Assembly: GCF_029688735.1 (NCBI RefSeq)
Contig: NZ_JARULD010000001.1
Location: 124,001 to 188,000, forward strand
DNA: 64,000 nucleotides
Reading direction: 5' to 3'
Origin: Qipengyuania flavescens
Lineage (GTDB): Bacteria > Pseudomonadota > Alphaproteobacteria > Sphingomonadales > Sphingomonadaceae
The position numbers and the translations under genes were made by a program. The notes beneath the pieces were generated by a model that was not told the origin of the DNA, searched no databases, and saw only the letters and a program-made list of their open reading frames with translations. Below, one piece after another: positions 18,067-20,342 of this stretch (position 1 is the stretch's first letter; each line of letters begins with the position of its first letter).

Positions 18067-18642
18067 ATGAAACCGATCTATGCCCACGCCGCAGGCGCGC
18101 TCGCGCTGAGTTTCACCATCGCCGCCTGCGTGCCGGCACCGGACTCGACGCCAGCTCCCGAGCAGGCTGCGACAGCTACGCCACCTGCGACTCCCACGCC
18201 GAGCGCGACCCCGCTGCCGCCACCGCCAGTGGAGGCGAACTGGATCGATCGCCCGCAGACGGCGGGCACCTGGCGCTTCAGCGGGAACCAGGCAGCTTTC
18301 GTCGAACGTGATAGCCAAGGTGGTCCGGTCGCGCCGAGCACTCCCCTGTTTATCATGGAATGCAACGGGAATGCCGTGCGGCTCTCGACTCAACTGCCCC
18401 GACCAGGCGCTCGCGTCATGGCCATACGCACCGAAACCGCGTCGCGGACATTACCACTCTCGCCAGTTTCTGCAGGCGGCGAACCCGCGTTCGCCTTCAC
18501 AGACCTGCAACCGCGCGACCCCCTTCTGGACGCGATGGCTTTGACGCGAGGCCGCTTCGCCGTCGAGGTACAAGGCGCGCCCTCGCTCTATCTCCCTGCC
18601 TGGGCGGAGGTGACGCGCGTGATCGAGGACTGTCGCAGATAG
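18067..18642 (+). CDS. putative lipoprotein, unknown function
   Basis: A 191-aa protein with a lipobox-like signal (LSFTIAACVP, Cys about residue 20) followed by a long Pro/Ala/Thr-rich tether (about 25-55) and a compact beta-rich domain. The domain has WRFSGNQAAFVERD, LFIMECNGNAVRLS and a C-terminal EDC; its two internal cysteines could pair. It is probably anchored in a membrane facing the periplasm. The domain is unknown to me. It stands alone between tlyA and a structured intergenic region. Confidence 0.75.
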   Translation: MKPIYAHAAGALALSFTIAACVPAPDSTPAPEQAATATPPATPTPSATPLPPPPVEANWIDRPQTAGTWRFSGNQAAFVERDSQGGPVAPSTPLFIMECNGNAVRLSTQLPRPGARVMAIRTETASRTLPLSPVSAGGEPAFAFTDLQPRDPLLDAMALTRGRFAVEVQGAPSLYLPAWAEVTRVIEDCRR

Positions 18643-18671: not shown

Positions 18672-18808
18672 ACAAAAACCAATTCTGACGTGGGAAAACT
18701 TTTTTTCAAGCCTTGAATTGCGCGCCGCGGCGCAACAAATTGGCAATCAAGATCAGCGGGTAGCGCGGTCTTGGCCCCCGGTGAAACGGGGATCTAGCTC
18801 ACAAGCTT

Positions 18809-18823
18809 GAAAGGAGGTGATCC
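18809..18823 (+). promoter_or_regulatory. 15-nt perfect complement of 16S rRNA 3' tail (extended Shine-Dalgarno)
   Basis: GAAAGGAGGTGATCC is the exact complement of the alphaproteobacterial 16S rRNA 3' end GGATCACCTCCTTTC. The GGAGG core ends 7 nt before an ATG. Ordinary ribosome binding sites match 4-7 nt, so this is an extreme case. A 5-bp CCCCG/CGGGG hairpin lies 18 bp upstream (18776-18791). Confidence 0.85.
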
Positions 18824-18824
18824 G

Positions 18825-18881
18825 ATGTCTCATGGTTCAGTAGCGAGGTCGGTGAAGATCCCTACGGAGCATATTCGGTAA
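18825..18881 (+). CDS. 18-codon small ORF behind a perfect anti-16S site
   Basis: ATG to TAA encodes MSHGSVARSVKIPTEHIR, a basic hydrophilic peptide with no membrane segment. The ideal spacing to the extended Shine-Dalgarno and the strong intrinsic terminator about 50 bp downstream suggest a stand-alone short transcript. It could make a micropeptide, act as a leader or decoy RNA that binds 30S subunits, or be a structured ncRNA in which translation is incidental. It is not rich in Leu/Ile/Val, so a classic ilv attenuator peptide is unlikely although ilvE is next. Confidence 0.55.
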   Translation: MSHGSVARSVKIPTEHIR

Positions 18882-18933
18882 CATTCCTGCCGAGTAAGGC
18901 TACGTGAGCGGCGCTTCCGGCCGCTGACCATGC

Positions 18934-18978
18934 GAAGGCCAGTCTCTCCTTAGGGCGAGGCTGGCCTTCTCATTTTTT
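18934..18978 (+). terminator. intrinsic terminator of the small-ORF transcript
   Basis: GAAGGCCAG and CTGGCCTTC form a perfect 9-bp stem, extended inward by CTC/GAG, followed by CATTTTTT. A second hairpin (AGCGGC/GCCGCT, 18907-18925) precedes it. It would separate the small-ORF transcript from ilvE. Confidence 0.85.
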
Positions 18979-19026
18979 CTGGTGCGAATTCTTTTTTGGG
19001 TGCGCTATCGACATCCGTCGATAGCT

Positions 19027-19111
19027 TGCGGCACCAGCCCACTCCCCCACCCGGCCACCCAATCAGTATAGTGCCGTGGGTGGCCGGGTGGGGGAGTGGG
19101 CTGGTGCCGCA
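19027..19111. repeat. perfect 35-bp inverted repeat with G-rich arms
   Basis: Two 35-bp arms, perfectly complementary, are separated by 15 bp. The right arm on the plus strand carries four G-runs (GGG, N5, GGG, N1, GGGGG, N3, GGG), a canonical G-quadruplex pattern; the left arm has the same on the minus strand. No T-run follows, so it is not a standard terminator. The spacer contains TATAGT. Two smaller stems follow before ilvE: GCGGAA/TTCCGC at 19120-19136 and GGTCAGGA/TCCTGACC at 19175-19196. Confidence 0.9.
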
Positions 19112-19262
19112 CGGAAAGCGCGGAAGCGGTTTCCGCACGCGACAAGAATCCGGAGTGTGCCGGTGCCGCCGCAAGGTCAGGACCGATATCCTGACCGCAC
19201 CAATCTCAAACACTCTCTCCCAAATCTTGCGAAAAATCCCCGCTGGCCTTACGCGCGCAGGC

Positions 19263-20342
19263 ATGGATTTCGAGCACCTCCCCCACCCCGCCCCCGTCCC
19301 CGGCGAGACGCGCCAGCAGGCGTTGCAGGACCCAGGCTTCGGCAAGCTCTTCACCGACCACATGGTCGTGATCGATTACGATGCCGATCAGGGCGGCTGG
19401 CACAAGGCGACGCTCGGCCCGCGCGAGCCGATCAGTCTAAATCCGGCAGCGGCCGTCCTGCATTACGCGCAGGAAATCTTCGAAGGCATGAAAGCATACA
19501 AGCAACCGGACGATGGCCTCGCCCTGTTCCGCCCCGAACAGAATGCCCGCCGCTTCAACGAAAGCGCGCGGCGCATGGCGATGCCCGAGCTGCCGGAAGA
19601 GCTGTTCCTCGAATCGATCCGGCAACTGGTCGGGGCGGACCGCGACTGGGTGCCGAGCGACCCCGACGGCTCGCTCTACCTGCGCCCCTTCATGTTCGCC
19701 TCCGAAGCCTTTCTCGGCGTACGTCCGGCCCGGCAGTACAAATATATCCTGATTGCCAGCCCCGTCGGCCCATATTTCAAGGGCGGCGCCAAGCCGGTGA
19801 AAATCTGGGTCAGCCGCAACTATACGCGCGCCGCCCCCGGCGGGACCGGCGCCGCGAAGACCGGCGGAAACTACGCCGCCAGCCTCGTCCCGCAGGCCGA
19901 GGGCATCGAAAACGGCTGCGACCAGGTCGTCTTCCTCGATGCGGTCGAGAAGAAATGGATCGAGGAACTGGGCGGCATGAACCTGTTCTTCGTGTTTGAC
20001 GACGGCACGGTGGTTACCCCACCCCTGACCGGCACGATCCTGCCTGGCATCACCCGCGACAGCCTCATCCAGTTGCTGCGCGAAGAGGGCCTGCAGGTAC
20101 GCGAGGAACCTTACAGCATCGACCAATGGCGCGCCGATGCCACTAGGGGCAAGCTGCTCGAGACGATGGCTTGCGGAACGGCTGCCGTCGTCACTCCGGT
20201 CGGCACGGTCCTTGGCCCGGATGGCGAATTCACCATCGGCAGCGGCGGCACCGGGCAAATGACCACCAAGGTCCGCGAGAAACTGGTCGGCATCCAGAAG
20301 GGCCGCGTCGCTGATACGAACGGCTGGGTGATGCGGCTGTAA
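19263..20342 (+). CDS. ilvE: branched-chain amino acid aminotransferase
   Basis: PLP enzyme exchanging amino groups between Leu/Ile/Val and 2-oxoglutarate. The 359-aa class IV fold protein has the PLP lysine in GAAKTGGNYAAS, the EIFEGMKAY substrate region, LYLRPFMFAS, and GTAAVVTPVG at the cofactor end. The start MDFEHLPHPAP fits the family N terminus; the frame is open for 270 nt upstream but crosses the inverted repeat and has no family sequence. The Shine-Dalgarno is weak (AGG close to the ATG). Structured DNA upstream may influence expression. Confidence 0.94.
   Translation: MDFEHLPHPAPVPGETRQQALQDPGFGKLFTDHMVVIDYDADQGGWHKATLGPREPISLNPAAAVLHYAQEIFEGMKAYKQPDDGLALFRPEQNARRFNESARRMAMPELPEELFLESIRQLVGADRDWVPSDPDGSLYLRPFMFASEAFLGVRPARQYKYILIASPVGPYFKGGAKPVKIWVSRNYTRAAPGGTGAAKTGGNYAASLVPQAEGIENGCDQVVFLDAVEKKWIEELGGMNLFFVFDDGTVVTPPLTGTILPGITRDSLIQLLREEGLQVREEPYSIDQWRADATRGKLLETMACGTAAVVTPVGTVLGPDGEFTIGSGGTGQMTTKVREKLVGIQKGRVADTNGWVMRL

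Follow-up and report, generated by a model that had tools for sequence, protein, structure and literature searches.

The CuckooR sRNAs carry an anti-Shine-Dalgarno (anti-SD) motif and exploit the SD/anti-SD interaction. This interaction is also used by BbsR14 of Bartonella bacilliformis, which, in the parts of the report devoted to it, bears the anti-SD side and would pair with the SD sequences of mRNAs (PMC7717549). The element described here, found in the window (the whole 64,000-nt stretch of Qipengyuania flavescens DNA that was analyzed), bears instead the SD side, for the ribosome. Pairing with the 16S tail that extends towards the start codon has likewise been described for the extended SD sites of Staphylococcus aureus, but there, according to the sections treating these sites, a couple of extra pairs are formed on ordinary mRNAs (PMC13009471), whereas the complement in the window element reaches up to 15 nt and belongs to a small free-standing RNA. 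Dual-function sRNAs and small mRNAs, of which rnTrpL/peTrpL of Sinorhizobium meliloti is an example, likewise combine a short RNA with a short ORF that is translated. As portrayed in the relevant passages, rnTrpL is a leaderless derivative of the trp attenuator and encodes an active peptide (PMC10117765); by comparison, the window element has a maximal SD, shares no common attenuated gene among its relatives, and gave no sign of peptide selection. The portions of the same study that deal with short ORFs place 33% of its 54 new translated sORFs on annotated sRNAs (PMC10117765), and ribosome profiling in Caulobacter found two previously predicted ncRNAs to be translated, which section 14 of that report leaves unnamed (PMC4117421).

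The closest described RNA is CC2171 (Rfam RF01867), which is catalogued as a Caulobacter sRNA with no known function. Its paper of origin is said to be that of Landt in 2008. RF01867/CC2171 appears in a table row of the Rfam 15 paper (PMC11701678) and is given in another table row for MH_s33 of Mesorhizobium huakuii (PMC5596092). Among the papers that literature searches on this family listed, none describes an ORF or a 16S complement for it in its title or abstract opening.

A divergent relative of RF01867

The initial annotation knew of no named family with the layout of this locus. When compared with RF01867, however, window positions 18801–18967 aligned with the complete model (1–159 of 159) at 43.5 bits, with an E-value of 9.2e-8 in 701 bases, and in a genome-wide search the element was the sole match in its own genome (E 9.5e-8). 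Because this score does not reach the gathering cut-off of 75 bits, below which matches also occur by chance at terminators, the element is a divergent relative and not a curated member; the relationship itself is almost certain.

The element shares with CC2171 a CAACAA-like 5′ end, the sequence GAAAGGAGGUGAUCC, a start codon at the corresponding position, which is GUG in the Rfam consensus, a terminator, and a helix that joins the codons after the start to the segment before the terminator. It differs in its MSHGS instead of VSHCH start, in a shorter frame, and in having its own helices P1b and P3 (described below). We refer to the CC2171-like loci (MSHCH..) as type A and to the MSHGS loci, including the window element, as type B. 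Type B, found family-wide in Sphingomonadaceae, is a real and widespread variant of the RF01867 family. One genome of the family (G041) carries both a CC2171-like copy starting MSHCH.. (68.9 bits) and a separate MSHGS copy, and thus the two lineages can coexist. The G041 copies are L244 (G041:C1:805104–805255) and G041:C1:2921849–2922077.

Organization of the locus

Judged from its sequence, the element is a predicted free-standing small RNA gene. A stretch of 216 nt containing it folded better than 200 of 200 shuffles (z −3.44) and had a single match in its own genome. All of its parts lie on the plus strand. The first ones came from a same-genus alignment of 14 of the 26 loci scanned, for which a single strand was searched: a conserved block, CTGACGTGGGAAAACTTTTTTTCAAGCCTTGAATT, at 18685–18719, which is perhaps the −35 region of a predicted promoter together with its A/T-rich upstream element, and an inverted repeat, CAAGATC...GGTCTTG, at 18748–18773, upstream of the docking site. 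A small hairpin, CCCCGGTGAAACGGGG (18776–18791, letters verified), precedes the docking site, and within the genus its stem is altered on both sides in one locus, L005 (TTCC/GGAA). The ribosome-docking site, GAAAGGAGGTGATCC, occupies 18809–18823, and is followed at 18825 by the ATG of an 18-codon ORF, MSHGSVARSVKIPTEHIR, whose TAA is at 18879–18881 (18825–18881 as a whole). An intrinsic terminator, a hairpin with a T-run, is at 18934–18978; one terminator-like site was found, against 0.7 expected in shuffles. The perfect 15-nt complement to the 16S tail, ATG, 18-codon frame, preceding hairpin, and terminator that had been pointed out initially are therefore all in place.

Upstream of the element is an ORF of 191 aa (18067–18642), which matches no Pfam or NCBIfam family and whose start suggests a lipoprotein-like protein; further upstream, on the other strand, is a TlyA-family gene. 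Downstream is ilvE (19263–20342), for a branched-chain aminotransferase. Since ilvE follows here and at 83 of the 173 type-B loci (80 among the 153 with more than 1.3 kb of sequence downstream), the element could be read as an attenuating leader of the gene after it; a leader as such was among the first proposals for it. This reading needs a constant downstream gene and is disfavored on that account, since ilvE is missing from the remaining loci. Moreover, the frame has no run of branched-chain codons, the terminator follows the frame and intervenes before ilvE, and helix P1 does not overlap the terminator stem. The most constant neighbor is instead the upstream 191-aa gene (155 of 173 type-B loci), a constancy that looks like plain synteny. 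A leader, of ilvE or in general, is thus hardly credible.

Between the terminator and ilvE, at 18993–19145, there is an inverted repeat with 69-nt arms that are 77% complementary and 15 nt apart. It draws spurious Rfam microRNA matches, and its 20-nt core was not found in any of the seven related loci checked.

Distribution

The 216-nt stretch was matched in 23 of 24 genomes of the same genus, the missing one being 75% complete, and in none of 16 genomes from other families of the order. The shorter motif AAAGGAGGTGATCCNATG, which comprises the SD and ATG, occurs as a single copy in 146 of 199 genomes of the family, representing 77 of 96 genera, while its reversed control had no match among these 199 genomes. 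Among the 53 genomes without the motif, 11 carry a longer motif with up to three mismatches. Of the 42 then left, 40 were covered by a search with the Rfam model, which matched in 27 of them at E ≤ 0.01, 23 of these at E ≤ 5e-6.

A survey of the order gave matches in 27 of 35 genomes of the family and in three of 83 genomes of other families. These three (L058, L059, and L060) look unrelated on inspection and were rejected as relatives. In L058, at about position 1500 of the minus strand, AAGGAGGTGATCCAACCTCC stands beside an ATG; on the opposite strand this sequence resembles a 16S 3′ end, away from any obvious rRNA gene. A scan of named genomes returned at least 118 stretches, and among the matches listed were Sphingomonas, Novosphingobium, Erythrobacter, Qipengyuania, and Sphingobium, together with five records of Azospirillum and one of Devosia.

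A looser pattern, AAGGAGGTGATCCNRTG, was used for a survey of the phylum. It was present in 81 of 397 genomes, which by row count are 80 of 161 alphaproteobacteria (17 of 21 within the family and 63 of 140 outside it) versus one of 236 other Pseudomonadota. The class-wide rate was lower, 30 of 385, when the ATG was required and families were sampled evenly. With any distance of 1–8 nt allowed between SD and ATG, matches came from 25 genomes outside the family; 24 of them have a hit with exactly 1 nt, and the 25th has a GTG in that position. The layout that recurs outside the family consists of a CAACAA-like sequence, a long SD, an MS.. start, a frame of 18–36 codons (56 in L208), and, in most cases, a terminator. 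When 20 such loci (19 from these genomes and that of Devosia) were compared with Rfam, all 20 matched RF01867, 16 of them at E ≤ 0.003, two at 0.02–0.03, and two at 0.13 and 1.1. Longer ORFs, of 56–59 aa where counted in most, occur in L107, L124, L128, L153, L155 (Azospirillum), L198, and L208. Past MSHGA.. the long ORFs of these relatives are hydrophobic, as if turned into a signal-peptide-like protein.

A search with RF01867 itself matched at E ≤ 0.01 in 42 of 172 alphaproteobacterial genomes that are at least 90% complete, six of them above the cut-off; this tally includes at least four genomes (G432, G377, G388, and G471) with terminator-like matches only, and counts the terminator-only matches L281, L283, and L285–L291, which were excluded from the locus sets. 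Two of 14 control genomes matched, Caulobacter vibrioides and Deinobacterium chartae, one of them above the cut-off.

Complementarity to the 16S rRNA tail

The 16S gene of the same genome ends in GGATCACCTCCTTTCT, and hence the docking site is an exact complement, over 15 nt, of its own 16S tail, GGATCACCTCCTTTC. The pattern recurs throughout the family. Judged from the loci aligned, GGAGGTGA is its firm core, and the full 15-nt complement is frequent but not universal. In a locus set of which 18 of 20 members were parsed (L323 and L331 were left out), seven loci of six genera (L336–L342) have GGTGACCG, one base shorter, in which the start-proximal pairing with 16S rRNA is broken. The variants GACCC, GATCG, and GCCC were also found at the docking site in some loci.

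In many other variants the pairing is kept by means of G-U pairs, as in GGTCC (several lineages), GATTC, GATCT, GAGAGG, and GAAGGG. Such preservation was set aside as a proof of pairing with 16S rRNA, because pairing is lost in GACCC and GATCG and with the one-base deletion GACCG. Among 31 genomes queried for matching variants of the tail, the 16S tail was recovered for three, and all three were standard. A second candidate, the pairing of a conserved stretch, CGATGTCTCATGG, with an internal region of 16S rRNA, was rejected, as 84 of 100 shuffles paired equally well. Internal copies of the anti-SD at a level of ≤0.05 in a shuffle test were present in six of 51 type-B loci versus 20 of 66 loci of other class members, a mild enrichment that is suggestive, outside Sphingomonadaceae, of a putative switch in which the RNA would sequester its own SD; in type B the signal is weak.

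Selection on the stop position, not on the peptide

Frame lengths in 166 unique type-B sequences are 15, 16, 18, 19, and 20 codons, 141 of the sequences having 18. On a tree of these sequences, 42 stop-type changes were counted against 12 changes of length, while the other two frames have 41 and 37 different lengths and underwent 82 and 101 changes. A similar picture was obtained for 73 other members of the class, in which 71 frames have 18–36 codons (interquartile range 22–26); the other two frames fall in this range in 19 and 18 of the 73. By these counts, the position of the stop is evidently under selection, and a selected frame end implies translation.

The amino acids, to judge from the codon changes, are not under selection. 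In codons 6–18 of 95 unique 18-codon type-B ORFs, 128, 138, and 87 changes fell on codon positions 1, 2, and 3, respectively. In two loci of one genus, L052 and L053, a one-base deletion inside the ORF rewrites the C-terminus, and the frames still end, at 20 and 18 codons. The first four codons (MSHG) are invariant, in all 54 loci recruited without fixing them; in the sets of 166 sequences and 95 ORFs they are fixed by the recruiting pattern and filter, so that their invariance there is by construction. Because the synonymous sites of these codons are frozen as well, the constraint points to the RNA level.

A functional micropeptide of 18–20 residues, as had been suggested at first, would account for the stop, for a frame that stays open, and for the invariant MSHG. 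It does not account for the codon statistics: position 3 changes least, the C-terminus is freely rewritten, even by frameshift, and the invariant start is frozen also at its synonymous sites, where it forms P1. We regard a function of the peptide as improbable. Selection may act on translation as a process and not on what it produces. Measured against the initial requirement of spread beyond the closest strains and of an ORF free of stops and indels in relatives, the element is widely conserved and its stop is kept, but changes of length and one frameshift occur within the frame; the more general proposal of a compact ribosome-engaging RNA is supported by this conservation.

The conserved stop bears in addition on the proposal that the RNA is a decoy or trap for the 30S subunit, in which the long complement would zip onto the 16S tail, a hairpin from codon 3 would hinder entry into elongation, and free 30S would be held. 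The exact 15-nt complement of its own 16S tail, recurring with the ATG in 146 of 199 genomes of the family, fits such a trap, as does the start of P1 at codon 3. A pure trap makes sense of the long complement yet leaves the conserved stop unaccounted for, since a selected stop implies that ribosomes reach the end of the frame and a trap needs none; furthermore, the start-proximal pairing is broken in the seven loci of six genera mentioned above. A trap of this kind is, in our judgment, a serious but unlikely rival.

The ORF as an arm of a long hairpin

Folding of 39 diverse type-B sequences with RNAalifold gave a single interrupted hairpin, formed by the helices P1, P1b, and P3, whose 5′ arm takes up most of the ORF. 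The alignment, A1, comprises 39 of the 40 loci chosen (L102 was dropped). In the window, the 5′ strand of P1 is formed by codons 3–6 (18831–18841), with its partner at 18923–18932; that of P1b, GGUCGG, by codons 8–10 (18847–18852), with its partner CCGGCC at 18917–18922; and that of P3 by codons 13–16 (18863–18870), with its partner at 18899–18906. The 3′ strands of P3, P1b, and P1 make up the 3′ arm (18899–18932), which lies between the stop codon and the terminator.

Counted on the same alignment that was used to find the hairpin, 93.2% of its cells are paired, against 87.4% in shuffles, and 62 are altered on both sides, against 27.7; none of 500 shuffles reached either value. Covariation is strongest in P3, where all eight pairs show two-sided changes and the score is 0.546, as compared with at most 0.219 in slid registers. 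P1 is nearly invariant within the family; of 165 unique family sequences, 154 carry its 3′ motif and 11 have small variants of it. As the sequences were cut by this motif, P1 is in A1 partly by construction, which does not affect P1b and P3. Class-wide, however, the P1 strands of 53 loci pair better with their own partner (−15.67 kcal/mol) than with permuted ones (−10.3 kcal/mol, SD 0.43; none of 5000 permutations as good), and the same holds for 34 loci with one per distinct 5′ strand (−14.79 vs −9.69; 0 of 5000).

Of the two hairpins initially placed after the stop, the terminator stood, and the first one (GCGGC/GCCGC) did not. The latter is paired in 78.1% of cells with covariation not above that of shuffles, and it clashes with the long hairpin, part of whose supported pairs it would exclude. 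It is supported neither as a conserved helix nor as an alternative fold of the freed 3′ arm.

The covarying hairpin also bears on a simpler explanation, that of an ordinary trans-acting sRNA, whose ORF would be translated only for protection or processing of the RNA and whose extended SD would serve efficient initiation, with no sensing involved. This explanation draws on the same data as the ribosome-gated reading given below, and according to the parts of the S. aureus report on the subject, selection of the start benefits from extended SD pairing close to it (PMC13009471). By itself, though, it leaves unexplained why the ORF, beyond the flanks, makes the covarying 5′ arm, and we consider it rather unlikely.

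A possible ribosome-gated RNA

The arrangement of the parts suggests a regulatory RNA that is mRNA-like and gated by the ribosome, reading out ribosome engagement, with the peptide as a by-product. We see this proposal as evenly poised between right and wrong. A start codon stands at a fixed spacing from a 12- to 15-nt complement of the 16S tail and is followed by the ORF; the stop codon falls within the apical loop, directly past the last 5′ strand, and the 3′ arm begins after the stop and reaches to the terminator. The RNA would have two exclusive states, an open one under translation and a closed one without it. Loaded ribosomes would unwind the 5′ arm, halt in the apical loop, and never enter the 3′ arm, which, freed and single-stranded, may adopt another fold, base-pair with a target, or undergo cleavage. 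Upon failure of initiation, the hairpin would close. Selection of the stop with the codons left free would follow if the ribosome opens the 5′ arm and leaves before the 3′ arm.

There is, then, evidence that RF01867 RNAs are mRNA-like and that selection keeps their translation, not the peptide. New here are the selected stop position, the unselected peptide, and most of the ORF as the 5′ arm of a covarying hairpin. The relatives of a Caulobacter sRNA have thus become an alphaproteobacterial group with a specific and testable property. If the ribosome-gated reading is true, these bacteria own an RNA for which translation itself is the means of sensing ribosome engagement, and even partial support for it questions the label "non-coding" for a family found in 42 of 172 to 80 of 161 alphaproteobacterial genomes, depending on method and sample.

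A bolder version is a class-wide sensor of ribosome availability, with the free 16S 3′ tail as its ligand, in which translation of a dummy ORF would open the hairpin and switch a regulatory 3′ arm. We put it forward tentatively and with some doubt; if true, it would tie alphaproteobacterial gene regulation to the supply of initiating ribosomes. The 3′ arm yielded no conserved target-like segment. Just 5′ of this arm, after the ORF, a second CATGGTC or CATGGGTC occurs in six of the 39 sequences of A1 (for example, L269 and L276), and this copy could compete with codons 3–6 for the 3′ strand of P1.
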